This document shows positions 1,950 to 48,560 of a stretch of DNA of 57,699 bases, piece after piece. Both the position numbers and the translations under genes were made by a program. The stretch's first letter is position 1, and every line of letters begins with the position of its first letter. The notes under the pieces were generated by a model that was not told the DNA's origin, did not search any database, and saw nothing but the letters and a program-made list of their open reading frames with translations. This DNA comes from an uncultured Bacteroidales bacterium (GTDB lineage Bacteria > Bacteroidota > Bacteroidia > Bacteroidales > WCHB1-69): assembly GCA_946413585.1 (NCBI GenBank), contig CAMKLG010000014.1:1-57699 (forward strand), given 5' to 3'.

Positions 1950-1980
1950 CTAACAGCCAAAAGCCAAAAGCCAACAGCTA
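1950..1980. repeat. Heptad array, CCAAAAG/CTAACAG family
   Basis: Units in phase: CTAACAG, CCAAAAG, CCAAAAG, CCAACAG, then CTA. The final CTA is the complement of the TAG stop codon of the minus-strand hydG gene. Related words recur at 11091 and 21207. Confidence 0.75.
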
Positions 1981-3432
1981 GAAATACAAATCCCTCTCCC
2001 CGGCTTTAATTCGCTCGATGCGCTTCAGCAGCTCATCGTGGAACTTTTCATCCACATTCACCATGTTGTTCTCAATCACTTTCCAACCTTTAGCAGCCAC
2101 TTCAGGGGTGGCGTAATCCACTAAGTACTCGCTCAAAGTGAGGATAGCGTTGGGTGTGCAATAACGTTTGATGAAACCCGGCACACTGAACTCCATGAAG
2201 TGCTCGCCGGTACGACCCAAACGATAACATGCCGTACAGAAGCTCGGAATAAAGTTGTTGTCCAAAAGTTCGTCGATGATTTCACCTAAAGTACGGTCAT
2301 CGCCGATCTTGAACTGCTCGCGGTGCAGGTTCTGGTCCTCCTGCTTGTCGCTGTTCTTCTCGGTCTCTTCGTGGTGGTATTTGTAGTCGCCAATCTGCAA
2401 GTTGGTACCACCGTCTATTTGCGAAATACCATACTGGATGGCTTTGGCACGGAACTCTGAGGTTTCACGAGCGGTGAGAATCATGCCAGTATAAGGCACG
2501 GCCAGACGGAAGATGGCGATGATTTTCTCGAAGGTATCGTCATCCACAAAGTATTTAGTATCAATGTTCAAACCGGAAGCATCCTTGATACGCGGGAAGG
2601 AGATGGTATGCGGTCCCACATTGAAGCAAGCCTCCAAATGGTTGGTGTGACGAATCATGGCCAACACCTCGAAACGCCAATCGTAAAGACCGAAGAGAAT
2701 GCCAAGACCGTTGTCGTCAATACCAGCTTGCTGAGCGCGATCCATGGAGGTAAGACGCCACTCGTAGTTGCCCTTGATGGTATTGGCGGGATGGTACCAA
2801 GAGTAAGCCTCTGGGTGATAAGTCTCCTGGAAAATCTGGTAAGTGCCTATGCCAGCCTCTTTTACAACGCGGAAACCTTCCACATCCAACGGCGCAGCAT
2901 TGATGTTGACGCGGCGGATAGAGCCGTTGCCCTTGTGCACAGAATAAGCCAACTTGGTGGTGTGTGCGATAAACTCGGGAGAGTATTTCGGGGATTCGCC
3001 ATAGACGAGGATCAGTCGTTTCTGACCGTCTTCTTCCAAAGCTTCAATATTGTGCACAAACTCTTCGTCTGTCAGGGTGGTACGCACCTGTTCGTGATTG
3101 GAGGAACGGAAACCGCAGTATTTGCAGTTGTTCACGCAATAGTTGCCCACGTAGAGCGGTGCGAACAGGACAATGCGGTTGCCATAGACGTTGCGCTTCA
3201 GCGTGCGGGCACCCTCCTTGATCTCCTCCACCAAAACAGGGTCGGTGGTGTTGATGAGAACAGCCGTCTCTTCCATCGTCAAACGATTCTTGTTCAACGA
3301 CTTAGCTATGATCTCACGCACCCGCTCGGGCGTGCTTTCGGTCTTGTTGATAAAATCCCAGATTTCTTCCGGGTCGATAAAAGGCTTCCCTATTTCATCG
3401 GGAATACGACATTTTTCGGGGTTAAATTGCAT
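1978..3432 (-). CDS. hydG: HydG, [FeFe]-hydrogenase H-cluster maturase (radical SAM tyrosine lyase)
   Basis: HydG cleaves tyrosine with SAM to supply the CO and cyanide ligands of the [FeFe]-hydrogenase active site. The radical-SAM cluster motif C-x3-C-x2-C is at residues 99-106 (YCVNNCKYC). The C-terminal second cluster motif C-x2-C-x22-C is also complete (CTAC...RYC), which separates HydG from ThiH. The length of 484 residues is normal for HydG. The gene lies downstream of a TM1266-type regulator on the same strand, separated by an 81-bp gap mostly filled by a heptad array. No hydE, hydF or hydrogenase subunit is in the window, so these must be elsewhere. Confidence 0.95.
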   Translation of the reverse strand: MQFNPEKCRIPDEIGKPFIDPEEIWDFINKTESTPERVREIIAKSLNKNRLTMEETAVLINTTDPVLVEEIKEGARTLKRNVYGNRIVLFAPLYVGNYCVNNCKYCGFRSSNHEQVRTTLTDEEFVHNIEALEEDGQKRLILVYGESPKYSPEFIAHTTKLAYSVHKGNGSIRRVNINAAPLDVEGFRVVKEAGIGTYQIFQETYHPEAYSWYHPANTIKGNYEWRLTSMDRAQQAGIDDNGLGILFGLYDWRFEVLAMIRHTNHLEACFNVGPHTISFPRIKDASGLNIDTKYFVDDDTFEKIIAIFRLAVPYTGMILTARETSEFRAKAIQYGISQIDGGTNLQIGDYKYHHEETEKNSDKQEDQNLHREQFKIGDDRTLGEIIDELLDNNFIPSFCTACYRLGRTGEHFMEFSVPGFIKRYCTPNAILTLSEYLVDYATPEVAAKGWKVIENNMVNVDEKFHDELLKRIERIKAGERDLYF

Positions 3433-3448
3433 ATTTATAAGAATTATT

Positions 3449-3518
3449 GGTTATCGGTTATGGGTTATTGAAGCTGGTTTATAGTTTATAGTTAATAGTT
3501 TATAGTTTAAGGGTTATG
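3449..3518. repeat. Heptad array, GGTTATN/GTTTATA family
   Basis: Ten 7-bp words run in unbroken phase: GGTTATC, GGTTATG, GGTTATT, GAAGCTG, GTTTATA twice, GTTAATA, GTTTATA, GTTTAAG, GGTTATG. The last word contains the stop codon (3514-3516) of the minus-strand regulator gene. Confidence 0.85.
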
Positions 3519-5033: not shown

Positions 5034-5138
5034 GTAGTTATTAGTTAGCAGTTGGGCTATTGGCTATTGGCTGTTGGCTATTGGCTGTTGGCTATTGGCT
5101 GTTGGCTATTGGCTGTTGGCTGTTGGCTAAAAGCCAAT
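5034..5138. repeat. Heptad array filling an entire intergenic gap
   Basis: Fifteen 7-bp words in one phase: GTAGTTA, TTAGTTA, GCAGTTG, then GGCTATT and GGCTGTT in mixed order, GGCTAAA and AGCCAAT. The array starts at the base after the TAA of the plus-strand gene and ends on the first base of the stop (5138-5140) of the convergent minus-strand gene. The final TTGGCT-AAA-AGCCAA can form a short hairpin. Confidence 0.9.
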
Positions 5139-6010
5139 TACGTACACAGAACATACAAATCATCCCGCTGGTTGATACAGAGAACCGATAACGGGGTATG
5201 GCCAATGATTTTGCGCTCACGCGGACCAGTTAGTACATCGCCAAGAGTGTAGTAGCGAGTCATCATGATCACAGATGCGCCAGCGTGTGCGCCGACATGC
5301 TCTATCAGGGGAAACTCCAAAGCGTAAGCATCCAAATACTTCTGTGGCTGCGTTTCGTGCTTTTCGTAGGTGACTTCCAGATTCTCATACAGTTTCTCAA
5401 CAAAGGCAACATTGTCATAAACCAATTTGGATAAACCTTCGTCTTTGTATCTCGGGTAGAGAATGTGGATAACGGAACCGTAAAACCGACTGAAATAGCC
5501 CGCCCATAACGCCTTTTCTTTGTTCTGCCGCTCGATATCCAACGGCAACAAAATGTGCTTGTAGTAAGTGGCATCTGGGTAAGCGAATGTGACCGTCATC
5601 ACAGGAAAACGCGACTGACGGATAAACTTAATGGCTTTCTTGGCACTAAAGAAACAACCCCCATCGGAACCACGTCCATCAGGCACCCCGATGACGAACA
5701 TGGCAGTGTTGTGCTCTTCCGCATAACGGAACAATGTTTCAGGGAAAATATAATCGGTAATAATTTGACATTTAGCCACTTTTGAAACCGTTTTCCGAAT
5801 TTCCTGTAAATAGGGACTATCTTCGGGAATATGGTGATACTCCGCCGGTCCGAAACCAAACCCGAAGTTGGCCATAACGGTCAACGAAGCTTGGAACACC
5901 TCCGCCAATACCACCCCCTGCGATACCGCAGCCAATCCACGCTGGGAATCGTCAGCAATCACCGTGATATTCAGGTTTCGGTCTCGTTTTATCGGTTCGT
6001 GAACTTCCAT
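5138..6010 (-). CDS. Universal stress protein (tandem UspA-like domains)
   Basis: A 290-residue cytoplasmic protein with two Usp-like alpha/beta halves. The first starts at NITVIADDSQRGLAAVSQGV and the second at HILLPLDIERQNKEKALW. GASVIMMTRYY and GHTPLSVLCI near the end match the typical C-terminal Usp strand pattern. Usp proteins bind nucleotides or sense stress, but the partner here is unknown. The canonical G-x2-G-x9-G-S/T ATP loop is not clean in either half, so nucleotide binding is uncertain. It may be cotranscribed with tsaB, 46 bp upstream. Confidence 0.8.
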   Translation of the reverse strand: MEVHEPIKRDRNLNITVIADDSQRGLAAVSQGVVLAEVFQASLTVMANFGFGFGPAEYHHIPEDSPYLQEIRKTVSKVAKCQIITDYIFPETLFRYAEEHNTAMFVIGVPDGRGSDGGCFFSAKKAIKFIRQSRFPVMTVTFAYPDATYYKHILLPLDIERQNKEKALWAGYFSRFYGSVIHILYPRYKDEGLSKLVYDNVAFVEKLYENLEVTYEKHETQPQKYLDAYALEFPLIEHVGAHAGASVIMMTRYYTLGDVLTGPRERKIIGHTPLSVLCINQRDDLYVLCT

Positions 6011-6037: not shown

Positions 6038-6062
6038 CATCATTCATCATTTATCATTATCT
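6038..6062. repeat. Short heptad array CATTCAT/CATTTAT/CATTATC
   Basis: Three to four 7-bp words between the usp start and the tsaB end. The last word carries the tsaB stop codon (6057-6059, minus strand). Confidence 0.55.
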
Positions 6063-6755
6063 CAGCCCCTTCACCACCGGTTTCGCCGCCACATACTCTT
6101 TCAAGTAAAACGGTTCGAAGTAGGCAACATTCTCAAATTCTTGGTTTTGCCACTTTCTTAAGGCGGCAGGGAGCATGTTTTGAGCAGAGATAGGGGCTTC
6201 TACAAAACAGGCATTGGGGAAGGCGGAGAGCAACTCGCAACATTTGGGCATGCCGTTGCCGCAGAACAGCACTTTCTGCTCGGAAAGCAACTCCGCAAAG
6301 GTGCTTTCATCCACAATCTTCGAGGAAATCTCCTCCAATGGCTGCATATTGAAGTCGAAGCGTGTGGTGAAAACCTCCATGCGACGCGCGTCAATCATGG
6401 GCACAATCTGTACATTTTCAGCTGATGATTGTATCCATAACTGCCTAGCACCCTGTGCGATACTCTCTAATGTGCTGACAGCTATCACAGGTACCCCGGC
6501 AGTGTAGGCAATACCTTTTGCGGTAGAAACCCCGATGCGCAGACCCGTGTACGAGCCAGGTCCGATGCTCACCGCCACGCCGTTAATCTCCGACATGATC
6601 ACTTCCGCCTGCTTCAACACCTCATCCACAAACGGCAACAGATTCTTGGCATGGTTGTTACCCCCTGCTTCTTCTTTCAGACCTACAATCTGGTCGCCCT
6701 TCGATAACGCCACGGAACAAACATCCGTCGCAGTCTCAATATACAAAATATTCAT
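6057..6755 (-). CDS. tsaB: TsaB, tRNA t6A37 biosynthesis subunit
   Basis: TsaB is the non-catalytic ASKHA-fold partner of TsaD in forming threonylcarbamoyladenosine at tRNA position 37. The start NILYIETATDVCSVAL, the motif SIGPGSYTGLRIGVSTAKG and VSTLESIAQG are diagnostic, and the length (~233) is typical. I place the start at the methionine before NILYIE. An in-frame ATG four codons upstream (6765-6767) lies inside a decamer array and would add MNNM-like residues absent from the family. Confidence 0.92.
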   Translation of the reverse strand: MNILYIETATDVCSVALSKGDQIVGLKEEAGGNNHAKNLLPFVDEVLKQAEVIMSEINGVAVSIGPGSYTGLRIGVSTAKGIAYTAGVPVIAVSTLESIAQGARQLWIQSSAENVQIVPMIDARRMEVFTTRFDFNMQPLEEISSKIVDESTFAELLSEQKVLFCGNGMPKCCELLSAFPNACFVEAPISAQNMLPAALRKWQNQEFENVAYFEPFYLKEYVAAKPVVKGLR

Positions 6756-6812
6756 ATTATTCATCATTCATCGTCATTCATCATCATTCATCGTCCCTTC
6801 ATCGCCCTTCTT
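6751..6812. repeat. Decamer array TCATCATTCA/TCGTCATTCA
   Basis: About five 10-bp words based on TTCATCG/TTCATCA between the tsaB start and the stop of the upstream gene (6815-6817). This is the same word family (CGATGAA) as at 15784 and 28815. Confidence 0.75.
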
Positions 6813-15783: not shown

Positions 15784-15822
15784 TAATGAATGACGATGAA
15801 GTCCGATGAATGACGATGAAAA
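15784..15822. repeat. Decamer array TGACGATGAA/GTCCGATGAA
   Basis: Three to four 10-bp words with the core CGATGAA, same family as the arrays at 6751 and 28815. Confidence 0.65.
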
Positions 15823-16877: not shown

Positions 16878-17135
16878 ATGAAAAAATACACGAATAAGAT
16901 CTTAATCATCACCGCAATTGTTCTGGTGCTGGCCATGGTCATCGGTCGCACCGTCGATTTCCAGACGGGCTACCGCAGCGGCAGAATCAAATATGAGAAA
17001 ATCGAAAAGGATTCGACACAGGTAATCACCTTGGATGACTTGGATGCGTACGTCGATTCTGTAGAGACGCGCCATGGCACGTCTCTACAAGACGAAAAAT
17101 CCTCCGAAAATCAACCCGAAACGTCTCACCAATAA
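16878..17135 (+). CDS. Small single-pass membrane protein in the ABC operon
   Basis: An 85-residue protein of unknown function with one N-terminal membrane helix (ILIITAIVLVLAMVIGRTV) and a charged tail. Residues ~61-71 (SVETRHGTSLQ) are encoded by a REP-like palindrome (17060-17089) that appears to have inserted near the 3' end of the gene, so the C-terminal tail is probably not under strong selection. Located 18 nt after the ATPase gene and 12 nt before the permease. Confidence 0.7.
   Translation: MKKYTNKILIITAIVLVLAMVIGRTVDFQTGYRSGRIKYEKIEKDSTQVITLDDLDAYVDSVETRHGTSLQDEKSSENQPETSHQ
17060..17089. repeat. REP-like palindrome inside a coding sequence
   Basis: TGTAGAGACG and CGTCTCTACA enclose C-GCCATGGC-A; 30 bp with a single mismatched position. 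A shorter relative occurs at 51163-51183. Confidence 0.8.
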
Positions 17136-17877: not shown

Positions 17878-18222
17878 ATGGATTTCAAGAACACACAAAC
17901 CATCTATCGGCAGATCGAGCATTGGGTTTACGAGCAGATTCTGTCGGGTGTGTGGAAGCCGGGCGAGCGGGCCAAGTCGGTGCGCGAGCTGGCTGTCGCC
18001 TTCGAGGTGAACCCCAACACCGTCATGCGCTCCTACGAACGTCTTCAAAACCAAGAGATTATCACCAACAAGCGCGGCATCGGCTTCTTCGTCAACGAGG
18101 ACGCCCCCGAGAAAATCCATGCCATCCGGAAGAAGGAGTTCATGGAGGAGGAGGTGCCGGAGTTCCTGAAAAACATGAGGTTGTTGGGGATTGATTTTAA
18201 TGAAATTGTTAATTGTGAATAG
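17878..18222 (+). CDS. GntR-family (YtrA subfamily) transcriptional regulator
   Basis: A 114-residue regulator. Residues ~5-70 are a GntR winged helix (QIEHWVYEQILSG, GERAKSVRELAVAFEVNPNT, MRSYERLQNQEIITNKRGIG). The short C-terminal helical region, instead of a ligand-binding domain, defines the YtrA subfamily, whose members repress the linked ABC transporter operon until cell-envelope stress. It starts one base after the permease stop. The last codons (C-E-stop) lie at the start of a heptad array. Confidence 0.92.
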   Translation: MDFKNTQTIYRQIEHWVYEQILSGVWKPGERAKSVRELAVAFEVNPNTVMRSYERLQNQEIITNKRGIGFFVNEDAPEKIHAIRKKEFMEEEVPEFLKNMRLLGIDFNEIVNCE

Positions 18223-18271
18223 TGATTGGTGAATAGTGAATAGTGAATAGTGATTGGTGAATAGTGAATTA
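18216..18271. repeat. Heptad array TGAATAG/TGATTGG (left flank of the four-helix gene)
   Basis: Eight words in perfect phase: TGAATAG, TGATTGG, TGAATAG x3, TGATTGG, TGAATAG, TGAATTA. The first word contains the GntR stop codon. Words such as TAGTGATTGG are the reverse complement of words in the right-hand array at 18679. Confidence 0.9.
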
Positions 18272-18300
18272 TGTTTTGTTAATAGTTAATTATAATTAGA

Positions 18301-18314: not shown

Positions 18315-18677
18315 ATGAACCATAAAGACTTAAATGTTTGGAAAGAGAGTATGAAACTTGTAAAAGATCTATATGTTGTACTTAAAAAGTTTCCTTCTGA
18401 TGAGCTATTTGGACTATGTTCTCAAATGAAGAGGTCTTCTGTATCTATACCATCAAATATTGCAGAAGGAGCAGGTCGTAATAATGACAAAGAAAACTTG
18501 CGGTTTTGTTTTATAGCGCAAGGTTCTTTATCAGAATTAGAAACACAGTTGCTTTTATCTGCAGATTTAAACTATCTCAAGCCAGATCATCCTCTCTTTA
18601 AACAAATCACCACAGTTCAAAAACTACTATCCGGTTATATCCGTCACCTTCAATTAAAAATCAGATCCCCAAAATAA
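18315..18677 (+). CDS. Four-helix-bundle protein (23S rRNA intervening-sequence protein family)
   Basis: A 120-residue protein. LNVWKESMKLVKDLY, FPSDELFGLCSQMKRSSVS, IPSNIAEGAGR and the helix with LSELETQLLLSADL are diagnostic of the four-helix-bundle family first found in 23S rRNA intervening sequences. Here the gene stands free, far from rRNA. It is more AT-rich than the genes on both sides, has a strong Shine-Dalgarno site, and is bracketed by heptad arrays whose words are partly inverted copies of each other. Biochemical function is unknown. The setting suggests an acquired cassette (inference). Confidence 0.92.
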   Translation: MNHKDLNVWKESMKLVKDLYVVLKKFPSDELFGLCSQMKRSSVSIPSNIAEGAGRNNDKENLRFCFIAQGSLSELETQLLLSADLNYLKPDHPLFKQITTVQKLLSGYIRHLQLKIRSPK

Positions 18678-18678
18678 A

Positions 18679-18748
18679 TCTCCAATCTCCAATCTCCAAT
18701 CTCCAATCACTAATTACAATTCACTAATCACTAGTCACTAGTCACTAA
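18679..18748. repeat. Heptad array TCTCCAA/TCACTAA (right flank of the four-helix gene)
   Basis: Ten words in perfect phase: TCTCCAA x4, TCACTAA, TTACAAT, TCACTAA, TCACTAG x2, TCACTAA. It shares CCAATCACTA and AATTCACTA with the reverse complement of the left array. Confidence 0.9.
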
Positions 18749-18760
18749 AAAATCAAAAAT

Positions 18761-23405: not shown

Positions 23406-23413
23406 CTTATAAT

Positions 23414-23475
23414 GGTTATTGGTTATAGGTTATTAGTTATTGTAGCAGGTTATAGGTTATTGAAACGGGTTGTTG
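23414..23475. repeat. Heptad array GGTTATT/GGTTATA
   Basis: Words GGTTATT, GGTTATA, GGTTATT, AGTTATT, a 6-bp slip, then GGTTATA, GGTTATT, GAAACGG. Inverted partner at 23536. Confidence 0.8.
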
Positions 23476-23535
23476 AAAATTATTACTGATTGTTGTCTCC
23501 GAACAGTTGCTATTAACTATTCAACATTTAACATC

Positions 23536-23570
23536 AATAACCTATAACCCGTAACCCATAACCATTACAA
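23536..23570. repeat. Heptad array AATAACC/TATAACC (inverted partner)
   Basis: Words AATAACC, TATAACC, CGTAACC, CATAACC, ATTACAA. These are the reverse complement of the GGTTATT/GGTTATA array 60 bp to the left, so the pair can fold into a stem. The last word holds the stop codon of the PAS gene (23565-23567). Confidence 0.8.
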
Positions 23571-26766: not shown

Positions 26767-28815
26767 ATGAAAGATATAAAACGTTACACTATTACTTCCG
26801 CGCTGCCGTATGCCAACGGTCCCGTACATATCGGACATCTTGCCGGCGTGTATGTACCCGCCGATATCTACGTTCGTTATCTGCGTAACAACGGCAAGGA
26901 TGTCCTTTTCATTGGAGGTTCCGATGAACACGGCGTGCCCATTACCATAAAAGCCCGCAAAGAGGGAGTGACACCACAAGATATTGTGGATCGTTACCAT
27001 AATATAATAAAGAAATCGTTTGAAGAACTCGGCATCTCTTTCGATATCTATTCGCGCACGTCAAACCCAACCCATCATGAAACGGCGGCAGACTTTTTCA
27101 AATATCTGTATAATAACGGAAAACTGATTGAAAAGGTTTCCCAACAATATTATGATGAAGAGGCGCACGAGTTTTTAGCCGATCGTTATATCACTGGAAC
27201 TTGCCCGCACTGCAACAATGAACACGCATACGGTGATCAGTGCGAAGCTTGCGGTACCTCCCTCAGTGCTACGGATTTGATTAATCCTAAATCCGCACTC
27301 AGTGGTAACACTCCCGTTTTAAAAGAGACCAAACACTGGTATCTTCCTTTGAATGAATATGATACATGGTTAAGAGAGTGGATTTTACAAGGTCATAAAG
27401 CCGACTGGCGTTCTACCGTTTACGGTCAGTGCAAATCTTGGATTGAGCAAGGTTTGCAACCCCGCGCTGTCACCCGCGACCTCTCCTGGGGTGTGAAAGT
27501 TCCGCTAAAAGAGGCCGAAGGTAAAGTACTATACGTCTGGTTTGACGCACCAATCGGTTATATTTCAGCCACTAAAGAGTGGGCCGAAGCCCACAATACG
27601 GATTGGAAACCTTGGTGGCAAGATGAAAGTTCAAAACTTGTTCATTTCATCGGCAAAGACAACATCGTGTTTCACTGTATCATATTTCCATGCATGTTGA
27701 AAGCACATGGTGGATATATTCTTCCCGAAAATGTACCCGCGAATGAATTTTTGAACCTTGAAGGTGACAAAATTTCCACTTCCCGCAACTGGGCAGTTTG
27801 GGCACACGAATATATTGAGGATTTTCCAGGCAAACAGGACGTTCTGCGTTATACGTTGACCTCTATCGCACCTGAAACCAAGGATGCCGACTTCACTTGG
27901 GCGGATTTCCAAGCCAAAAACAACAACGAATTATTGGCCATCTTCGGCAACTTTGTGAACAGAACAGTGGTATTATCCCATAAATACTACGGCGGAAATA
28001 TTCCAGAATGTGGTGAACTCACTGATTATGAGAAGGAAATCATCGAAAAGTTGGCCCAATATCCAAGCATTATCGCAGATTCCATTGAACATTATAAGTT
28101 CCGCGAAGCACAAGCCGAACTGATGAATTTGGCTCGTTTGGGTAACAAATATCTCACCGATACCGAACCTTGGAAAAAACAGAAAGAAAATCCTGAATAT
28201 GTAAAAACTATTTTGCATATTTCTCTGCAAATTTGTGCTTCCTTATCCATTTTGTGCGAACCTTTCTTGCCATTTACGTCTAAAAAGCTACAGAAAATGC
28301 TCAATATAGACAACAAAAAATGGTCGGACGGCGGTCGCCATGATCTTCTGAAAGCTGGTAATCCTCTCAATCCTGCTGAATATCTGTTCGAAAAAATTGA
28401 GGACGATGTCATTGCTAAACAAGTGCAGAAGCTAGAGGAAAGCAAAAAACAAAATGAAGCCGCTAATGCAGAGGCCTTTCCAGCTAAAGAAGATGTCACT
28501 TTCGACGACTTCCAAAATATGGATCTCCGCGTGGTGACCGTTTTGGCAGCTGAAAAGGTGGCTAAGACAAAAAAACTGTTGAAACTCAAAGTTAATACAG
28601 GCGTAGATACTCGCGAAATTATCTCAGGTATTGCTGAATATTATCAACCTGAAGATCTGGTCGGCAAACAAGTTTTGATGCTCATCAACCTTACTCCTAA
28701 AAACATCAAAGGCGTGGATTCCCACGGTATGGTACTCATGGCTGAAGATGCCGACGGTTCACTTTCTATCATGCAACCGCAAAAGAAGGTGAAAGAGGGT
28801 AGTACGGTGAAATAA
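26767..28815 (+). CDS. metG: Methionyl-tRNA synthetase
   Basis: A 682-residue class I synthetase that charges tRNA-Met. The HIGH motif is PVHIGHLAG (~residue 20). A single zinc knuckle is CPHC..CEAC, and the KMSKS loop reads KISTS, a variant common in the MetG1 clade. Residues ~575-682 form the OB-fold tRNA-binding domain ([20 protein letters not shown]), which dimerises the enzyme. The stop codon abuts a decamer array whose words also build the terminator. Confidence 0.97.
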
Positions 28816-28912
28816 CGATGAAAGACGATGAATAAAGATGAAAGGCGATGAACATTCATCGCCTTTTTTCATCGTTTTTCATCGTCTAGTTCATCACCCT
28901 TTCATCGTAAAT
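28815..28912. repeat. Decamer array CGATGAA, direct then inverted
   Basis: Direct words (ACGATGAAAG, ACGATGAATA, AAGATGAAAG, GCGATGAA) are followed by inverted words (TTCATCGCC, TTCATCG, TTCATCG, TTCATC, TTCATCG). The whole 98 bp is a large imperfect palindrome directly after the metG stop codon. Confidence 0.85.
28841..28869 (+). terminator. metG terminator built from array words
   Basis: AAAGGCGATGAA pairs perfectly with TTCATCGCCTTT across a 2-nt loop and is followed by TTT. It is the centre of the decamer palindrome. Confidence 0.75.
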
Positions 28913-36291: not shown

Positions 36292-38172
36292 ATGGAGAAT
36301 CATTACGATATTATAGTGGTAGGTGCAGGTCATGCTGGATGTGAAGCAGCAGTTGCTTCGGCGCGTCTGGGACATCAGGTTTTGCTCGTTACGATGAATC
36401 TTGCATTGGTTGCCCAGATGTCTTGTAACCCTGCAATTGGTGGTATCGCCAAAGGACAAATCGTGAGAGAAATAGACGCGCTCGGTGGCATGACAGGCAT
36501 CGTGACGGATCATACCATGATACAGTTCAGAATGCTCAATCGTTCCAAAGGACCAGCCATGTGGAGTCCGCGTGCACAATGCGACAAAACAGCCTTTTCC
36601 CTCTATTGGCGACGCGTACTTGAAAATACTCCGAATCTACATCTACGTCAAGATACCGTTACTGAACTCCTTCTTGAGGACTACACTGCGAAAGGGATAA
36701 AAACCCAATTGGGTAAAACGTTATTTGCTCAAAGGGTCATCCTTACAAATGGTACTTTTCTCAACGGCAAAATACATGTGGGCGAGGTTAATTTTTCTGG
36801 AGGTAGGATAGGGGAGAGTGCCTCTTTTATTCTTTCCGACCAATTGAAAGATTCCGGTATTCGTACCCAGAAATTGAAGACTGGCACACCCGTGAGAATT
36901 GATGGACGAACAGTGGATTTCACTAAAATGGAAGAACAACCTGGGGAAGAAAATCCTGGCAGATTTTCATTTTCCAATACCCCGCAGCTTCATCGTCAGC
37001 TTAGTTGCTGGATTACCTATACGAATGAGGAAGTCCACAAAGTCCTGCAAAAAGGTTTTGAAAAATCTCCGATGTTTCAAGGACGCATTCAAGGTGTGGG
37101 TCCTCGTTACTGTCCCTCTATAGAGGATAAGATTGTCCGCTTTGCTGAACGTACCCGCCACCAACTTTTTTTGGAACCTGAAGGTCGTGGCACTCATGAA
37201 TATTATCTGAATGGCTTTTCCTCTTCTCTTCCGGAAGATATCCAGGTCGAAGCGATGCATTTAATTCCTGGATTGGAAAGTGCAGAAATCTTCCGCCCAG
37301 GATATGCTATCGAGTATGACTATTTCGACCCAACACAACTGCATTATACGTTAGAATCAAAAATCATCAAAAATCTCTATCTTGCTGGTCAGGTGAACGG
37401 AACAACAGGATATGAGGAGGCTGCTTGCCAAGGATTGATGGCTGGTATCAATGCGCACCTCTCCATTGCACAAAAAGAGCCTCTTATCCTTACACGCTCA
37501 CAAGCCTATATCGGAGTTCTCATCGACGACTTAGTCACAAAAGGCGTCCAAGATCCGTATCGTATGTTTACTTCACGTGCTGAATATCGTATCCTTCTGC
37601 GGCAGGATAATGCTGACTATCGTCTAACACCAATAGGTCATCAACTCGGTTTAATTGATGAAGATCGTTACCTGGAATATTTTCATAAATACGATATTCA
37701 GCAACAAATCATCGGGTATCTTCGTCGGCACACTACACAGTTGCAAACGCTCAATGCTTTGCTGGAGAAGCGCGGAACTCCGCCGTTGACTCAGAATGTA
37801 AAGCTGGAAAATGTGTTGCTCCGTCCGCAGATCTCCATACAAGATATTATTGATTACGACTTTGATTTTGCTAAATATTTATCGCAAATAGGAGCGGATG
37901 CGGAGCAAATTGTCAATGCTGAAACTTACATCAAGTATAATAGTTATATCCAAAAAGAGGAAGAATTAGTGCAGCATCTTTCTAATTTGGACAATATCAA
38001 ATTACCTGCTGACTTGGATTACGCAAGCATTCAATCTTTGTCTAAGGAAGCTCGTGAAAAGCTGACAAAACTTCAACCTGCCAATTTGGGTCAAGCCTCC
38101 CGTGTGAGTGGTGTAAGTCCTGCTGATATTACTGCGTTGATGATTTTTTTGAAGGGAGTGAGTAGTGAATAG
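36292..38172 (+). CDS. mnmG: tRNA uridine-5-carboxymethylaminomethyl modification enzyme MnmG
   Basis: MnmG (GidA) works with MnmE to modify U34 of tRNAs. The FAD-binding motif VVGAGHAGCEAAVASARLG is at residue ~8. QMSCNPAIGGIAKGQIVREI and GRGTHEYYLNGFSSSLP are family signatures, and the C-terminal helical domain ends with RVSGVSPADITALMIF. Length 626 is typical. The last residues (V-S-S-E-stop) are encoded by a heptad array. Final gene of the rpiB operon. Confidence 0.97.
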   Translation: MENHYDIIVVGAGHAGCEAAVASARLGHQVLLVTMNLALVAQMSCNPAIGGIAKGQIVREIDALGGMTGIVTDHTMIQFRMLNRSKGPAMWSPRAQCDKTAFSLYWRRVLENTPNLHLRQDTVTELLLEDYTAKGIKTQLGKTLFAQRVILTNGTFLNGKIHVGEVNFSGGRIGESASFILSDQLKDSGIRTQKLKTGTPVRIDGRTVDFTKMEEQPGEENPGRFSFSNTPQLHRQLSCWITYTNEEVHKVLQKGFEKSPMFQGRIQGVGPRYCPSIEDKIVRFAERTRHQLFLEPEGRGTHEYYLNGFSSSLPEDIQVEAMHLIPGLESAEIFRPGYAIEYDYFDPTQLHYTLESKIIKNLYLAGQVNGTTGYEEAACQGLMAGINAHLSIAQKEPLILTRSQAYIGVLIDDLVTKGVQDPYRMFTSRAEYRILLRQDNADYRLTPIGHQLGLIDEDRYLEYFHKYDIQQQIIGYLRRHTTQLQTLNALLEKRGTPPLTQNVKLENVLLRPQISIQDIIDYDFDFAKYLSQIGADAEQIVNAETYIKYNSYIQKEEELVQHLSNLDNIKLPADLDYASIQSLSKEAREKLTKLQPANLGQASRVSGVSPADITALMIFLKGVSSE

Positions 38173-38198
38173 TGAGTAGTGAATATGGGATAGGGGGT
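38157..38198. repeat. Heptad array AGTGAGT/AGTGAAT overlapping the mnmG 3' end
   Basis: Six in-phase words: AGTGAGT, AGTGAAT, AGTGAGT, AGTGAAT, ATGGGAT, AGGGGGT. The array starts 16 bp before the mnmG stop codon, and the TAG is formed across two words. Confidence 0.85.
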
Positions 38199-38476: not shown

Positions 38477-38535
38477 CAGTTCTTCTTTTGAAAAGGAGAT
38501 GAGATAAAATATCAACAAATATCAATAGAATAATT

Positions 38536-39075
38536 ATGGAATTAAAAGGATCCCAAACTGAAAAAAATCTGCAGACCGCTTTCGCTGGCGAGTCTCAAGC
38601 ACGTAACAAATATTCATACTATGCTTCCAAGGCCAAAAAGGATGGCTATAATCAAATTGCTGCTATTTTTGAGGAGACGGCTGCCAATGAGAAAGAACAT
38701 GCCAAAATTTGGTTCAAATTGCTTCACGATGGCAAGGTTCCTGATACGGTTACCAATCTGAAGGATGCTGCTGCTGGCGAAAACTACGAGTGGACAGATA
38801 TGTATGCCGGTTTTGCTAAAACTGCCAAGGAAGAGGGTTTCGATCATATTGCTCAACTTTTCACCATGGTAGGCGAAATCGAGAAGCACCACGAGGAGCG
38901 TTACAAAAAGCTGTTGGCCAACATTGAGGGGGGTCTTGTTTTCTCTCGCGACAATGACATGATTTGGCAATGCAGCAACTGTGGTCACATTGTGGTTGGT
39001 AAGAAGGCTCCGGATGTGTGTCCTGTTTGCGACCATCCGCAATCCTATTTCCAAATTCTGCCTGATAATTTTTAA
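38536..39075 (+). CDS. rbr: Rubrerythrin
   Basis: A 179-residue peroxide reductase of anaerobes. The ferritin-like diiron domain has E-x-x-A-x-x-Y ([11 protein letters not shown]), [10 protein letters not shown] and [14 protein letters not shown]. The C-terminal rubredoxin domain has CSNCGHI and CPVCDHPQ. It reduces H2O2 with electrons from rubredoxin or NAD(P)H systems. Followed at 36 nt by a second, domain-swapped rubrerythrin; the pair is probably one operon for oxidative-stress defence. Confidence 0.97.
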
Positions 39076-39111
39076 TCAACAATAATCAAATAACTTAAAA
39101 ATCAGAAATTT

Positions 39112-39663
39112 ATGAAAAAAAAATTCGTTTGCACCGTGTGCGGTTATGTACACGAAGGAGATACTCCCCCAGAAAGATGTCCTCAATGTAAGCAACCTGC
39201 TGAAAAGTTCAAAGAATTGGTAGAAGATGGTGCTTTGTCATTTGTCACGGAGCACGTTATCGGCGTTGCCAAAGACAGCGATGAAGAGATGATTAAGGAT
39301 CTCAATGCGCATTTCATGGGTGAAGCTACGGAAGTGGGCATGTATTTGGCTATGAGCCGTCAGGCCGACCGCGAAGGTTATCCTGAAGTGGCTGAGGCTT
39401 TCAAACGCTATGCCTTCGAGGAAGCCGAGCATTGCGCCAAATTTGCCGAATTACTCGGTGAGGTGGTCTGGGATACCAAAACCAACCTGGAAAAGCGTAT
39501 GATGGCCGAAAGCGGGGCTTGTGCGGACAAAATGCGTATCGCTAAGCGTGCGAAAGAGATGAATTGGGATGCTATCCATGATACCGTTCATGAGATGGCT
39601 AAAGATGAAGCTCGTCACGGACAAGGTTTCGAAGGTCTCTTTAATCGCTATTTCAAGAAATAA
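39112..39663 (+). CDS. Reverse rubrerythrin (N-terminal rubredoxin domain)
   Basis: A 183-residue protein with the rubredoxin-like domain first ([22 protein letters not shown]) and the ferritin-like diiron domain second ([48 protein letters not shown]). This swapped order defines reverse rubrerythrins, which in clostridia act in NADH-linked peroxide and O2 reduction. The same operon as the classical rubrerythrin and followed by a terminator. Confidence 0.95.
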
Positions 39664-39685
39664 AAATCTGTAAATCAATAATTTG

Positions 39686-39717
39686 AAGCCTCATACCAAT
39701 AAGGTGTGGGGCTTTTT
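39686..39717 (+). terminator. Terminator after the rubrerythrin genes
   Basis: AAGCCTCATACC pairs with GGTGTGGGGCTT (G-U and one mismatch) across loop AATAA, followed by TTT. Confidence 0.75.
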
Positions 39718-39778
39718 AGTTAGCAGTTGCTTTGAACTTTGCTTATTCCATTAAATCTATCGAGAAATGTATTTAAAA

Positions 39779-39804
39779 CAAAAAACCCCGAATTATTCGG
39801 GGTT
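39779..39804 (-). terminator. Terminator after tRNA-Phe
   Basis: On the minus strand AACCCCGAA / TTCGGGGTT with a 3-nt loop is followed by a T run (the A run at 39778-39785). Confidence 0.8.
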
Positions 39805-39806
39805 CG

Positions 39807-39879
<73 letters not shown>

Positions 39880-39897
39880 ATCGTTGGTTTGAGGCTG

Positions 39898-39905
39898 CAA
39901 ATATA
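39898..39905 (-). promoter_or_regulatory. -7 box TATATTTG (with -33 TTTG) for tRNA-Phe
   Basis: TAnnTTTG on the minus strand with TTTG (complement of 39927-39930) 21 nt upstream: the full two-box Bacteroidota promoter, 18 nt before the tRNA. Confidence 0.8.
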
Positions 39906-39992
39906 CACTTTTTTTTAATTCTCAGTCAAATCACTGAAATTTTTTATAAATCATTATTAATCAACTGTTTACATATAAAAAAATAGTTAATT

Positions 39993-40757
39993 TTACCAAA
40001 ATTTTGATATTGGAAACTGCTCTCTTAGCGATTTTACGGCATCAAAGTCGCAAGAATGGATTAAAATCTCTTCTTTTTGCGTTCTGGTTTGCGCTTCAAT
40101 TTCTCCATGCGGATTGATAATGGCGCAACCGCCATTATATTTTCGTTGGTATCCGTCGGTGCCAACTCGGTTCACAACCAGTGCGTAGGCTTGGTTTTCA
40201 ATAGCGCGTGCACGTGCCAAAGCTATCAGCTCTTGTTCGCGGGGTGCTGGAAAATTGGCTGTATAGACTAAACAATCATAATCAAATTTATTGTCAATCA
40301 ATCGGTTGCGACTCCATTCGGGGAAGCGCACATCAAAACAAATCAGCGGCAGGAATTTATATCCTAAAGATTGTATGATGGTTTTCTGATTGCCTGGGCT
40401 GAAGAATTCTTCTTCTCCTAAAAATAGATGGTGTTTGTCATAGCTCCCTAAGATGCGGTCGCGGGAAAGCCATACTAATCTATTGTAAATCAACCCGTTT
40501 TGTTTAACAGGAATCGTGGCCACTACATCACATTCGAATTTGCAGGCCATTAAGTAGAGAAAATAGACTCCTTCACCATTATGTTGTTCCGCATCTGATT
40601 GAATATCAGGAGAAAAACCACAATGAAACATTTCAGGGAATATCAGCAAATGCACGGGTTCCTGAATCGCGCTTTCCAGCCATTCCGAATAGTGCGCCAA
40701 GTTTCCTTTTTTGTTATAAGCCTTAATGTCGGCTTGAACCAATCCTACATTAATCAT
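39993..40757 (-). CDS. Carbon-nitrogen hydrolase, YafV-type omega-amidase
   Basis: A 254-residue cytoplasmic nitrilase-superfamily enzyme. The Glu-Lys-Cys triad is visible in LLIFPEMF, SYDKHHLF and PLICFDVRFPEW. Overall length and the FPAPREQELIALARARAIENQAY region fit the omega-amidase branch that deaminates alpha-ketoglutaramate or alpha-ketosuccinamate (metabolite repair). Two nt downstream of the SAM hydroxide adenosyltransferase gene, so the two are cotranscribed. Confidence 0.9.
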   Translation of the reverse strand: MINVGLVQADIKAYNKKGNLAHYSEWLESAIQEPVHLLIFPEMFHCGFSPDIQSDAEQHNGEGVYFLYLMACKFECDVVATIPVKQNGLIYNRLVWLSRDRILGSYDKHHLFLGEEEFFSPGNQKTIIQSLGYKFLPLICFDVRFPEWSRNRLIDNKFDYDCLVYTANFPAPREQELIALARARAIENQAYALVVNRVGTDGYQRKYNGGCAIINPHGEIEAQTRTQKEEILIHSCDFDAVKSLREQFPISKFW

Positions 40758-40759
40758 GA

Positions 40760-41530
40760 TTATTCGTATTTAATGGTGATGGTATCGTCGGGTTCCAAAT
40801 CTGCTAAAATTGCCACATCAGATTGATACGCAGCAATTTCCAAATAACCTAAAGCATTATTGCAAAGGTACATCTCATCATCAGTTGCCGTGTAATGATC
40901 AAAGTGTTTGCGAATAATCCAACTACCTTTCGATTGTATGCTTGCCGTAAATTCATGTCCGTTAACTGCTTTTTCAAACATACTTACGGGAATATTGGTA
41001 ACGGCATTGTAGAATGCATCAATATAGACAATTTGTCCCTCTATACGCCTTTCTGAAACAGAATGATCGGGCATTTCGGTAAACAAACGTTTGAATTTGG
41101 AATATTCCACTGTGTTTTGGGCCAAATTGCCCTCTTTGATTAATTGGATAAATTTAATAATTTGGTCTAACGTATTTGCTTTATTATCTGAAAGTTGTAA
41201 TCCTTTCAAAGGCGTTTCCATTCCAAACATAAGATGAAAAACGCCGTTGTCTTCGCCGATGAAGTAATGTCCGTTGTGTTGCAGCAGCACAGGTGAGAAG
41301 GTGGAATTCAGAGACATGTTTGTCAAAATCAAGTGTATGGAACCTTCTGGAAATGAGCGATATCCGCTTTTCATCAGCAAGGCAGTTTGTGGCAGATTGA
41401 ACTTGTCCACATAATGGGTCATATCAATGATTTGAACTTCAGGGAAGACGCTCAAGAGGCTGCCTTTGAACATCGACACGTAGGGGTCGCGCAAACGCCA
41501 ATCACTTAATAGGGTAACAATCAGATTCAT
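40760..41530 (-). CDS. S-adenosyl-L-methionine hydroxide adenosyltransferase (DUF62)
   Basis: A 256-residue protein of the fluorinase/chlorinase-related DUF62 family, which hydrolyses SAM to adenosine and methionine. TLLSDWRLRDPYVSMFKGSL corresponds to the conserved N-terminal SAM-binding loop, HYFIGEDNGVFHLMFG to the family YVGPDNG region, and IEGQIVYIDAFYNAVTNIP to the VxxIDxFGNxxTN motif (here FYNAVTNI). Start ATG at 41530 follows promoter box 41560-41567. Confidence 0.9.
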   Translation of the reverse strand: MNLIVTLLSDWRLRDPYVSMFKGSLLSVFPEVQIIDMTHYVDKFNLPQTALLMKSGYRSFPEGSIHLILTNMSLNSTFSPVLLQHNGHYFIGEDNGVFHLMFGMETPLKGLQLSDNKANTLDQIIKFIQLIKEGNLAQNTVEYSKFKRLFTEMPDHSVSERRIEGQIVYIDAFYNAVTNIPVSMFEKAVNGHEFTASIQSKGSWIIRKHFDHYTATDDEMYLCNNALGYLEIAAYQSDVAILADLEPDDTITIKYE

Positions 41531-41559
41531 AAATATTTAAGCAATCAAAAACAAAGTTG

Positions 41560-41567
41560 CAAATGTA
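41560..41567 (-). promoter_or_regulatory. -7 box TACATTTG for the DUF62/nitrilase operon
   Basis: TAnnTTTG on the minus strand, 29 nt before the ATG. Confidence 0.7.
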
Positions 41568-41640
41568 TATAAAATACACATACGCGCTAACAAACGAAAT
41601 GGGGTACCTTGGAGATTCAATGAATAGCGTCCCTACAAGA

Positions 41641-44600
41641 TTATCGGACATTCTCCTGTAATGTCTTGTTAATAAGCGTTTTAAGTTCCAAGATATTGGT
41701 TTCTACCACTTTTCGCTTTTCGGGTTGGAACAGGGTCGCGTATTTGGCTTTGCCGACTTTGAACTTCAGTTTATCTTCTAAACCAATGATATCCAAACCT
41801 ATGCGTATGGGTTTGAGTAAGGAAATGTTATAGTCGTAAGTCATGTCGAGATTGTGCCGTCCGGAGATGATGGCCTGGTACTTGTCGATGGAAAGCAAGA
41901 ACGGATAGACATCCACTTCGTTGCGGAAGATGGTGATTTCCGTTGATAAACTGTCGATTTTGTTCTGCGTTTTCTTGTTGAACATCAGTTTCTTAGCGAT
42001 GGTTTTGTAGGTTTCATTATCCAAAACCACCAAGTCGTGACCGTTGATGGCGGCGGCGCCTCGCAGGGTAGAATATTTGATATCGTAATTGGATTTCAGG
42101 TAGGTTTCCGCTGCGAAGTGGAATTCAGCGTTGCCGCTGAAAGCTTTTAACATAGGGATAATGGTATCGACTTCCGGAATCATAGCAATGAGCTTATCTA
42201 TCTTGATGTCAAGTAGATGGAAGTCGAAGCCGAGGAAGAGATGGTTCATGCGCGGGGTGCGGTACATGGCCGTGAGTTGCATCCGTGCAGCATCGTTGGT
42301 GAGACCCATTTCCTCCAATACTAATACGCCGTCCTTCACATACACGCGCCCGGCGATGTTGCGGAATTCCGATTCCTCATACAAGGCTTTCTTGATGGTT
42401 GTGTTCATGTTGACATCCACGCCAAATGGTACGATAAAGGGTGTAGTTTCTTTATTATCAGCTAATTGTTCAGCTTGCTCCAATAATGTGTCGGGAGCAC
42501 CGAAACCATCTACAAATGCCATCAATTCATTCAAATTCAAATAGTTGGCCACTAATTCTAAATTGCCTTTAAGTAATCCTTTGTTTTGGAGGTAAGGTTC
42601 TATACCCGTAATGGTGCCAGTGAGATTAATGTCAGACTGTCCGAACTTCAAATTTGCTTTTTTTAACACACATTTCTGCGGGTTGAAGTCAATATTTAGT
42701 GTCGGAAATTCTATGGCGTGCGCCACATCGCGGATTTCTGCTTTGGCATTTGTGGTCTGTAGTTTCACCACCGGCGACCACTTCACCAGCGGGTGTTCTT
42801 CATAATCCTTATAATCAATCTCTGCTTGCAGATTTATTTTATCTGTAGTGAAGTTGATGAAATTGCCCATGTTGGAACTCGTGGGTTGTCCTGAGTTGCT
42901 GACGTAAACGTTAACATTATTTCCGTTGTAATCCAAACGCATTTGATTCATGTTTTTCAACACGAAAATGCCTTGAGGATGTGAGAGTTCCGCAGTAATC
43001 GTGTCTGCCTGCATACCGAGATGAGACAGCTTATAGGAAGTGGCAAATTTGAGTTCTACCGTGCTGTCTAACAGATTGTTGGTATAAGCATCCAACTCAA
43101 TAATAGAGCCATTGATCTCCTTTTTTGCATTAGAGCGTATATTTTGGATTAGCAGTTCACTCGTTTTCACCTTAGCATTGAGCCATTCGTCGATTTTGTA
43201 CGGTTTCTCAGTGATAGGGAATGTCAAGTCAACCTGTAAATCAGGTGAATAGACGGACATAGTATCATCGTATAGCAGTTTCAAGTCCTTAAACTGTCCG
43301 TTGACGATGGCTTTGGAGATATTGTCAACAGAAAACCCGGTTTCGGGGTCGTATGCGAGCTGCGTTTGAACTTTAACATCCGCTTTGCCCTCGTATTGAG
43401 TAAAAATTTCCGGCAAGAAATCTTTGAAGTCATTAATGTGCAGGTTCCCGTTGGCGACAATATCGCATAACATCTTGCCAAACAGATTCTTAATGGTACC
43501 CGAAGCGGTCAATTTATTGTGTTTTCGCGTGGTTGCGGACAATGATTTGACGGTCAAATCGCTTTGGTTGTTGAGATTCAAGTCGAGATCGAAAAGAGCG
43601 TTAATTTTTTCAAAATCAAGCGGCAGGTCTTTCATCGCAAACGAACCGTTTTTCCAAGCAATGTCGGAGGTGACGACAGGTAAATGAGTAGGAGAATATA
43701 GTCCTTTCACCGTTCCTTGGATTTGCATTTTTCCTTCTATCGTTATGTCATCCAGTGCGTTACCGATCACTGCATCAGGAATAATGGGGAGGATATCCAG
43801 AATGTTCCATTCGTCGGTTTCGTATTGCAGGTCGGTATAAAGTCCGTGGCGGGTAGAATCTTGTTGTACCAAACCGTTCACCAAAAGGGAATGACCATCG
43901 ATTTTAACGACCGTTTCTTTCAAATTGTACTGTTGTGCATCAAAATCTGCAAGCAATTTTGAATAGATTGAAACATCTAACTCATTGACATATAAGGAAG
44001 TGTCAAGAAGAAGGCGGGCTTTTTGCAAGCGTACATTTGCTTCGCCGTTTATTAAGTTAAAATTTGTGAAAGAACCGTCGTAGGTGGCTTCGAGATTTTG
44101 TCCGGAAAGGTTGATTTTGGTGCTGTCGTCCATGATGAAAAAGAGCGTTTTGGCATTCGCTTTCAACTTTCCATCCATGTTTTGTTCCGCAAAGGCACCT
44201 TTTACCGTTAAATCCACCTGTTCAAGGTTCGCTTTCAGCTTCGATTGCTCATTTTGAAAGCGAATATCTAATTTTTTAGTCTTAACTTTTTGTAAATCAA
44301 CAGTATAATCAAAAGAGGAAGTGTCGTTGGGATTGGAGCGGAACACATTGAAATTGCCGTTTCCTGCTTCATCGATATAGAGGTTGGCCAGGCCTTCTTT
44401 CAGTGAAAAATCGTTAATTTCTACGTGTTTGTTTTTGATGAGTTCACGAATGTTGAGCGCGGCCACACAGTCTTTTACGTACAGCAAAGTATCTGAAACG
44501 TTAGCGTTTTGCGGATTTTTCAGTACGACATTTTCCAAATCCAATCCGATTTTTGGGAAAGTTTTGAAAAAAGTGAGTCCAACATTGTCGATATGGAATT

Positions 44601-44751
44601 CGCAAGTAAGAAATTTGTCGGCTTGATTATTGACAATTTTTGCCAATTTGGAAGGTGAAAAAATGCTAAAAAGAGCAATAGAAACCATAATGGCAATCAC
44701 TAGAATGAGGGATGCCAAGGAAATGAGTCCTATTTTTAGTGCTTTTTTCAT
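41641..44751 (-). CDS. AsmA-family envelope protein
   Basis: A 1036-residue protein with one N-terminal membrane helix (LISLASLILVIAIMVSIALF), followed by long beta-rich repeats. The N-terminal AsmA region (FFKTFPKIGLDLENVVLKNP, VKDCVAALNIRELIKNKHVEI) and the C-terminal AsmA_2-like region (AFSGNAEFHFAAETYLKSNYD) are recognisable. AsmA-like proteins are bridge-type factors linked to outer-membrane lipid transport and assembly. It begins directly after the lipoprotein stop, in an operon with murB and an Omp85-like barrel, consistent with envelope work. Confidence 0.88.
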   Translation of the reverse strand: MKKALKIGLISLASLILVIAIMVSIALFSIFSPSKLAKIVNNQADKFLTCEFHIDNVGLTFFKTFPKIGLDLENVVLKNPQNANVSDTLLYVKDCVAALNIRELIKNKHVEINDFSLKEGLANLYIDEAGNGNFNVFRSNPNDTSSFDYTVDLQKVKTKKLDIRFQNEQSKLKANLEQVDLTVKGAFAEQNMDGKLKANAKTLFFIMDDSTKINLSGQNLEATYDGSFTNFNLINGEANVRLQKARLLLDTSLYVNELDVSIYSKLLADFDAQQYNLKETVVKIDGHSLLVNGLVQQDSTRHGLYTDLQYETDEWNILDILPIIPDAVIGNALDDITIEGKMQIQGTVKGLYSPTHLPVVTSDIAWKNGSFAMKDLPLDFEKINALFDLDLNLNNQSDLTVKSLSATTRKHNKLTASGTIKNLFGKMLCDIVANGNLHINDFKDFLPEIFTQYEGKADVKVQTQLAYDPETGFSVDNISKAIVNGQFKDLKLLYDDTMSVYSPDLQVDLTFPITEKPYKIDEWLNAKVKTSELLIQNIRSNAKKEINGSIIELDAYTNNLLDSTVELKFATSYKLSHLGMQADTITAELSHPQGIFVLKNMNQMRLDYNGNNVNVYVSNSGQPTSSNMGNFINFTTDKINLQAEIDYKDYEEHPLVKWSPVVKLQTTNAKAEIRDVAHAIEFPTLNIDFNPQKCVLKKANLKFGQSDINLTGTITGIEPYLQNKGLLKGNLELVANYLNLNELMAFVDGFGAPDTLLEQAEQLADNKETTPFIVPFGVDVNMNTTIKKALYEESEFRNIAGRVYVKDGVLVLEEMGLTNDAARMQLTAMYRTPRMNHLFLGFDFHLLDIKIDKLIAMIPEVDTIIPMLKAFSGNAEFHFAAETYLKSNYDIKYSTLRGAAAINGHDLVVLDNETYKTIAKKLMFNKKTQNKIDSLSTEITIFRNEVDVYPFLLSIDKYQAIISGRHNLDMTYDYNISLLKPIRIGLDIIGLEDKLKFKVGKAKYATLFQPEKRKVVETNILELKTLINKTLQENVR

Positions 44752-45147
44752 CTATTGTTTGGTAAAGGTGTAATATTTTCCGAAGTCATCGTGGTAGGAG
44801 AGGGTAGTGGCGTTTAATTTCGTAACCGTATAGGTTTTTGGCACGTTACCGCCCATTTCCATTTTGTGAATTTGAGTCAAGGTGGAGCCTTCCAACGTCC
44901 AGGTGAAGGGTTGTGCTTCCTCTTCAGTCACGTCGTCGGCGGTGTCCCATGTGTAGCCAGTGCCTACCTCGTTGTAATGTTCATGCAAAGTGCCTGCCGC
45001 CCATGTTCCAGTGAGCAGCGTTTTGTCGAATTTTTGGCCGCCCCCAAATATATCGCAACTGTTCATCAAAAACAGTAAACAACAGAATGTCAGTCCGATA
45101 TATAGACTTTTCTGAAGATTATTGGCGATATGGGTGTTCTTTTTCAT
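44752..45147 (-). CDS. Lipocalin-like lipoprotein
   Basis: A ~131-residue lipoprotein. The N-terminal hydrophobic segment ends in a lipobox (FLMNSC), so the mature protein begins at Cys. The rest looks like a small lipocalin-like beta barrel: LLTGTWAAGTLHEHYNEVG, FTWTLEGSTLTQIHKM, VTKLNATTLSYHDD. The start at 45147 (MKKNTHIANN) is preferred over an upstream ATG seven codons earlier because it gives a normal lipoprotein signal. Function unknown. Confidence 0.82.
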   Translation of the reverse strand: MKKNTHIANNLQKSLYIGLTFCCLLFLMNSCDIFGGGQKFDKTLLTGTWAAGTLHEHYNEVGTGYTWDTADDVTEEEAQPFTWTLEGSTLTQIHKMEMGGNVPKTYTVTKLNATTLSYHDDFGKYYTFTKQ

Positions 45148-45179
45148 TGTTATTTTAGATAATTTCAAGATGATAAAGA

Positions 45180-46190: not shown

Positions 46191-46193
46191 AGA

Positions 46194-47630: not shown

Positions 47631-47648
47631 AAAGGTTAGGGGGGGATT

Positions 47649-47690
47649 AGTTTAGGGTTTAGGGTTTAGAGTTTAGGGTTTAATAGTCTA
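47649..47690. repeat. Heptad array TTTAGGG family
   Basis: Words based on TTTAGGG, TTTAGGG, TTTAGAG, TTTAGGG, TTTAATA in 7-bp phase, followed by two copies of TCTAAGT (to ~47706). It lies between the yggS stop and the Omp85-like start, directly upstream of that start. Confidence 0.8.
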
Positions 47691-47717
47691 AGTCATTTGT
47701 CTAAGTCAATAATAAAG

Positions 47718-48389: not shown

Positions 48390-48405
48390 ACGGACTAAAT
48401 TTTAG

Positions 48406-48479: not shown

Positions 48480-48491
48480 AAGTTTCGGCGG

Positions 48492-48499: not shown

Positions 48500-48560
48500 C
48501 AATTTTTTTTGATAGTCGGAAATGAGTGAGAAGTGAAATTTCAGCAACTCCAAAAAATTG

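Follow-up and report, generated by a model that had tools for sequence, protein, structure and literature searches.

Period-7 repeat arrays in register with stop codons at gene borders of an uncultured Bacteroidales bacterium

The gap between two convergent stop codons at positions 5034-5137 of the window (the whole 57,699-nucleotide contig stretch of an uncultured Bacteroidales bacterium that was analysed here) is nearly filled with 7-base words in tandem, which raises the question of what such arrays are, why they lie at the borders of genes and how they are made. Short tandem heptads in intergenic DNA are known from cyanobacteria as STRRs, and the present arrays resemble them in both respects, as far as the description of STRRs goes. 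To our knowledge, heptad repeats have been reported from unrelated groups of bacteria with no agreed function.

The gap is 104 bases long. It holds a single in-phase period-7 segment at 5035-5128, found with a segment detector and composed of several words (TAGTTAT, GGCTATT, GGCTGTT), and Tandem Repeats Finder reports GGCTATT in 10.7 copies at 5055-5129. The first-pass annotation had counted fifteen heptads exactly filling the gap. The period-7 array is real and in phase, but the first 20 bases are other words and the last nine lie outside the segment.

Among the further arrays that had been listed in the window, those at 1950, 3449 (also 3477), 18216, 18679, 23414, 23536, 38157 and 47649 are clear. 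The array AAAAGCC/AACAGCC (1945-1977) abuts the stop codon of the minus-strand gene 1978-3432 and has the same word in the relative. GTGAATA (18223-18290) extends upstream into the final codons of 17878-18222, and AATCTCC followed by AATCACT (18677-18760) stretches between the stop of ORF 18315-18677 and the start at 18761. The gap 23406-23564 has an array of GGTTATT at its left edge (23410-23441), with other words in the relative, and one with AACC words at its right edge (23510-23563) that is roughly complementary to the left one. AGTGAAT (38157-38185) straddles the stop codon of 36292-38172 and is again represented by other words in the relative; GTTTAGG (47650-47682) has the same words there, in a gap 14 bases longer. 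The listed heptads at 6038 (3 copies) and 21150 (3.6 copies at 21177) are weak, as is the octamer GGGTTAGA at 53483-53513, which is present with 73% matches and corresponds to a heptad array in the relative. The tandem-repeat search of the window did not recover the array reported at 11091; the equivalent gap of a close relative does have a heptad array. Decamer arrays were recovered at 6764-6804, 15786-15820 and 28811-28885. The last of these consists of ACGATGAAAG followed by its complement; the one at 6764-6804, TCATTCATCG, lies near the start of the minus-strand gene 6057-6767, a position at which relatives have no array or one with units of 7, 10 or 11 bases. Anchoring of such 10- and 11-base arrays to start codons, striking at one gene in the relatives, was dropped as a general rule, as 2 of 205 starts here show it at lag 10 and none at lag 11.

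The wider sample comprised the window and 400 kb of the same genome (G000), 458 kb in total. The assembly has a size of 2.98 Mb in 125 contigs and is 87.8% complete and 5.6% contaminated. Genes were taken from a simple ORF/hexamer caller that missed at least the ORF 18315-18677, merging two gaps. A second set consisted of 462 kb from relatives, being 28 of 34 loci after two that are mostly N and four overlapping ones had been removed (L016 lies inside L050; L004/L005 and L011/L014/L015 share DNA). Contigs C89 and C114 of the window's own assembly carry second copies of parts of 38500-57699 at 78% and 91% identity; together with the contamination these suggest that the bin may mix related species. 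The organism appears to be a Bacteroidales of the rumen or gut, relatives of a neighbouring gene coming from metagenome bins of this kind.

In the 458 kb, 54 period-7 arrays were detected in 44 kb of intergenic DNA, where 0.8 were expected, and seven in the 409 kb of coding DNA. The excess of period 7 over a null model that the first-pass annotation had implied thus extends across the genome, and tandem 7-base units far above chance are what characterises heptanucleotide simple-sequence repeats (LSSRs). Every other period from 4 to 15 has 0-10 arrays, and the ten of period 14 may also be heptads. Lag-7 identity in the gaps of the window is 8.0 SD above 200 Markov shuffles, and the pattern GGCTATTGGCTATTGGCT, with up to 3 mismatches, occurs at 225 places genome-wide, compared with 30 for the reversed pattern.

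The arrays are almost confined to intergenic DNA and are unevenly distributed within it. Their density is 2.61 per kb in convergent gaps (11 arrays), about 1.35 in co-directional gaps (39) and 0.35 in divergent gaps (4). The excess of lag-7 identity over shuffles follows the same order (0.093, 0.050 and 0.023), coding DNA being below its shuffles. In the relatives the contrast between convergent and divergent gaps is weaker, 1.29 (7) against 0.50 (5) arrays per kb. Of the 3' ends, 219 are followed by 40 or more intergenic bases, and 58 of these have a heptad array within 70 bases; seven other lags give 0-6. The nearest gene border is a stop for 32 arrays and a start for 21, one with a tie in base content being unplaced. 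The proposed targeting of 3' ends therefore stands as far as the arrays are densest in convergent gaps and rare in coding DNA, but arrays also occur at start codons, where their polarity is opposite.

At the 3' side, arrays often start in the register of the stop codon and contain copies of it. This register and the polarity at starts were first noticed in the relatives and tested afterwards. An array runs from the stop at lag 7 in 40 of the 219 ends, compared with 0-2 for nine other lags, and some of these 40 extend into the last codons of the gene. The gene's own stop triplet occurs again at +7, +14, +21 and +28 in 9.6, 8.7, 7.3 and 7.3% of the ends, other offsets from 3 to 29 giving 0-4.6%. 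Lag-7 identity is about 0.25 deep in the gene, about 0.3 in the last codons and about 0.40 at the stop, after which there is a plateau and no ramp. Among the relatives the array runs from the stop in 26 of 245 ends (other lags 0-5), with stop copies at +7, +14 and +21 in 6.5, 7.3 and 6.9% and no excess at +28. Only 5 of 205 start codons have an array at lag 7. In the gap 3433-3513 the arrays GGTTATN and GTTTATA (3444-3509) correspond to ATTATGA in the relative, where the array supplies the stop codon: the protein encoded in the window ends VVTKS and that of the relative, five residues longer, ends VLTKFIIQNS within the different word.

Before starts the arrays have nearly only one orientation. 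Of the 21 nearest a start, 19 have a C-rich sense strand, as do 13 of 15 in the relatives (p 0.007), whereas 5' regions free of arrays are unbiased (C exceeds G in 46% and G exceeds C in 45% of 208). After stops no significant preference is found, with 19 G-rich against 13 C-rich in sense (p 0.38) and 19 against 12 in the relatives. Translation initiation in Bacteroidota has been described as proceeding without Shine-Dalgarno sites and as being tuned by mRNA structure and several upstream bases (PMC6847099). This context is a possible reason for the C-rich sense strand before starts, its link to the arrays being our suggestion.

The words fall into 79 classes, the ten commonest each occurring in 5-11 of the 54 arrays. 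Within one array they change in phase and grade into each other. The first-pass annotation had described them as unrelated; consensus words do differ while the period is kept, but expectation-maximisation largely aligns the arrays in one shared register, whose core, T[A/G]G..T, resembles TTAG. This core is loose, having 4.10 bits compared with 2.99 +- 0.13 when columns are shuffled within arrays, and only slightly exceeds tandem random intergenic heptads (3.88 +- 0.18). Pairs of TTAG in the gaps number 70, 57, 41 and 29 at lags 7, 14, 21 and 28, and no other lag between 4 and 30 has more than 5; genes lack the pattern. The arrays are nearly CpG-free and enriched in TAG and TAA, and TGA is not enriched. 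Half of the arrays (27 of 54) have stops in all six frames; tandem random heptads give 8.4 such cases and intergenic DNA of matched length 3.2. Several loci have a mosaic word order in common (50 shared 21-mers compared with 17.2 +- 6.5 after shuffling the order of units), to which alternating arrays of two words contribute much; judged from sequence, this common order would fit copying between arrays.

Comparison with G060, which is the genome of locus L012, the nearest relative that was found and about 90% identical over aligned stretches, shows how the arrays change. Four stretches contain 66 gaps, of which 47 with both flanks were used and 19 dropped because a flank was missing. Arrays are present in both genomes in 22 of the 47 gaps, in the window's genome only in 1, in the relative only in 4 and in neither in 20 (Fisher p 2e-8). 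Hence 22 of the 23 gaps with an array in the window's genome also have one in G060. Ten of these 22 have no word in common between the genomes and 8 share at least half, so that the period is kept while the word changes, as had been claimed. Among 20 gaps aligned at 93% identity or more, indels inside arrays are multiples of 7 in 11 cases out of 13, compared with 1 of 22 outside; when all gaps above 75% identity are tabulated, the picture is noisy and many array indels are not multiples of 7, the clean count being that of the 20 gaps. Length changes by whole units, which also characterise LSSRs, support the earlier suggestion of a copying or slippage process. Between species, lengths shift in sevens, the site is conserved and the word is replaceable. 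The gene 5138-6010 next to the array at 5034 is only 73% identical to its L012 counterpart, the neighbouring genes being 91-100% identical, and this drop suggests local recombination.

Similar repeats occur more widely in the phylum. The GGTTTAG pattern was found in 28 of 60 genomes (the window's own included) and 5 of 25 genera, ranging within the genus from 0 to 941 places per genome. Four TTAG units at spacing 7, with one mismatch allowed, were found in 180 of 394 Bacteroidota genomes and at spacing 8 in 76; the reversed patterns used for comparison in this survey exceed the query in several genomes of one genus and are not neutral controls, because reversed words can themselves be heptads. 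At spacing 8 the genus g34 (family f31) reaches 155 places, with CTTAG plus a variable triplet in many among the matches listed; such period-8 arrays occupy 60-155 places in several of its genomes (G376, G305, G234 and others). G352 has period 7 with other words (GTGAGAC, GGATGAC), G376 and G230 have period 7 or 8, and G362 (80 kb) and G240 (15 kb) provide too little sequence to judge. A stop register at lag 8 was seen in the period-8 genus in 1 of 105 ends of G376 and 2 of 117 of G230, similar to other lags. In G352 an array runs from the stop in 4 of 89 ends, against 0 at lags 6, 8 and 9; the stop triplet is raised at +7 and +14 (7.9% and 5.6% of 89) and not at +21, offsets +25, +30 and +31 being as high as +14. 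One contig labelled Lachnospiraceae (L020) has the same Bacteroidales gene order with 75-79% protein identity and is probably mis-binned.

The first-pass annotation knew of no described equivalent in Bacteroidota, a statement that does not hold as worded: TAACTGA direct repeats, partly mixed with other heptamers, have been reported from Beggiatoaceae, Cyanobacteria and five Bacteroidetes, with indel steps of 7 nt between close Cyanothece strains (PMC4679880, in its sections on these repeats). The present arrays resemble them in being intergenic, in mixing heptamers and in their 7-nt steps, and the reverse complement GTTATCA is one base off the word GTTAGCA found here. TAACTGA itself is not among the 45 commonest of the 79 word classes, the nearest class being AACTGCT. 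As the same sections of PMC4679880 describe it, the Beggiatoa genome has mostly the one word TAACTGA just upstream of start codons, unlike the many words found here, which reach their highest density between convergent genes and keep step with stops. Nor is the two-sided placement at gene borders without precedent. The GGGNATC heptads of Xanthomonas and Nostoc are described in the relevant parts of PMC4692102 as quadruplex-forming and near gene borders, under-represented in divergent gaps, with the G-rich strand antisense before starts, a preference for sense after stops and some overlap with stops; in two related species most of them are flanked by the same genes, their length and sequence being variable. 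The G-rich strand is antisense before starts here too (the same 19 of 21 and 13 of 15 arrays), but the sense preference after stops is not significant and only 3 of 54 arrays have a quadruplex motif. The resemblance in start-side placement to Xanthomonas and Nostoc, found here with few quadruplex motifs, speaks against quadruplexes as the general reason for that placement. Mrazek et al. 2007, as cited in PMC4679880 and PMC4692102, found that in many genomes rich in repeats the long repeats most often have heptad units, and proposed a polymerase slippage step of 7 nt; compared with their LSSRs as cited there, the present arrays differ in having several words per array, the stop-codon register, the polarity at starts and conserved sites with swapped words. 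The arrays are heptanucleotide simple-sequence repeats, a known kind, and what is new in them is the stop-codon register and the conserved sites with swapped words. Titles and abstract openings of the open-access literature, with subscription literature mostly outside, yielded no description of stop-codon-registered heptad arrays in Bacteroidales.

The explanation we consider fairly probable, on comparative sequence grounds, is that a mutational step of 7 bases makes the arrays, words are copied between them and selection filters their location, with no word-specific function needed. Slippage or unequal exchange with a preferred 7-base step, perhaps belonging to replication or repair, would make and resize the arrays, and new words would enter an existing array from others by way of the shared core. 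The filter would keep arrays out of genes and mostly out of divergent gaps, favour a C-rich sense strand before starts and leave stop-bearing words at gene ends. An array would abut or sometimes supply the stop codon because a stop-bearing heptad lets no incoming frame run on for more than about 21 bases, so that nearly any junction with a reading frame would be tolerated; sense repeats rich in G immediately upstream of a start may be removed because they harm initiation. If so, a large proportion of the gene borders in this genome seem to owe their shape to a slippage step and not to one element passed on by descent, and the register, the conserved sites with swapped words and the start polarity make the question of passive versus selected origin testable for bacterial heptads. 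Several observations go against this account. Pure slippage leaves the small shared dictionary and the CpG-free composition unaccounted for, slippage plus exchange does not explain the choice of 7, and the exchange step rests on the shared mosaic order, which comes partly from alternating two-word arrays. The near-complete conservation of sites and the excess of six-frame stops exceed what a passive process must give and leave room for a selected role.

Such a role could be that of translation barriers, TTAG-core heptads catching readthrough and frameshifted ribosomes at gene ends. The core reads TAG on one strand and TAA on the complementary one and, 7 not being a multiple of 3, a few units stop all six frames; the six-frame excess, the enrichment of TAG and TAA, the stop-codon register and the persistence of sites despite word change all agree with this. 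We nevertheless hold it to be unlikely, as TGA is not enriched, stops are about equally frequent antisense and sense (68% and 73% of heptads in the 39 co-directional arrays), arrays of the same words also precede starts and occupy divergent gaps, and an array entering a reading frame must bring a stop, which yields part of the pattern without any function. A G-rich array might instead pair with a complementary one across the gap as a terminator or to protect the transcript. In three genomes of two other families the halves of gaps are complementary above swapped gaps (G352, z 6.9, 20 gaps; G376, 5.9, 21; G230, 3.9, 21), the left half is G-rich and the right C-rich in 4 of 4 genomes tested, and the single gaps 23406-23564 and 28811-28885 of the window show complementarity. 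The window's genome has a z of -1.7 (53 gaps), however, and only 0-10% of gaps in those three genomes exceed the 99th percentile of swapped gaps. Hairpin-plus-T terminators stand at 6 of 48 ends with arrays and 31 of 156 without (p 0.29), so that the arrays have no significant relation to them as substitutes or companions, and pairing arms seem to us improbable. Spread by a template-writing or array-inserting enzyme would suit the restricted set of words that recurs across loci and species and the whole-array replacement in 10 of 22 gaps; it is very improbable in view of the in-phase gradation of words and the 7-base length steps, and an unsystematic look beside the arrays noticed no element or target duplication. 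Scarcely credible is a role as Rho-utilisation sites or G-quadruplexes, for which the position at gene ends and the GGGTTTA words, in principle able to form quadruplexes, might speak: C is not in excess after co-directional stops (C exceeds G in 54% of 37 ends with arrays and 48% of 121 without), and the quadruplex motif is as rare as given above. Rut sites, quadruplexes and terminators are unsupported as a general explanation in the window's genome. Going beyond the repeat-step explanation that we prefer, one may imagine in Bacteroidota a class of gene-border elements that do not depend on the exact word, whose period (7 or 8) is specific to the lineage and which are stop-registered, start-polarised and selected for period and core; they would act as six-frame barriers or insulators and be rewritten by array-to-array exchange while their sites persist. 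We regard this as speculative and rather doubtful.

Some other repeats and hairpins were seen in the course of the work. Matches to Rfam at the gathering score within the window are four tRNAs only, no array matching a known RNA family. A tandem repeat of period 147 (21 x 7) lies within a long ORF at 4-1151. The palindromic element TGTAGAGACG...CGTCTCTACA at 17058-17091 is situated within a small called ORF and has about 20 near-identical places in G060; in some relatives, hairpins like it are found downstream of a 290-aa gene. Dispersed hairpin elements (CCTTGAGCAGCCCCGTAGGGGCAAGAGC and longer) occur in the middle of gaps around the counterparts of gene 6057-6767 in many of the loci L003-L016.
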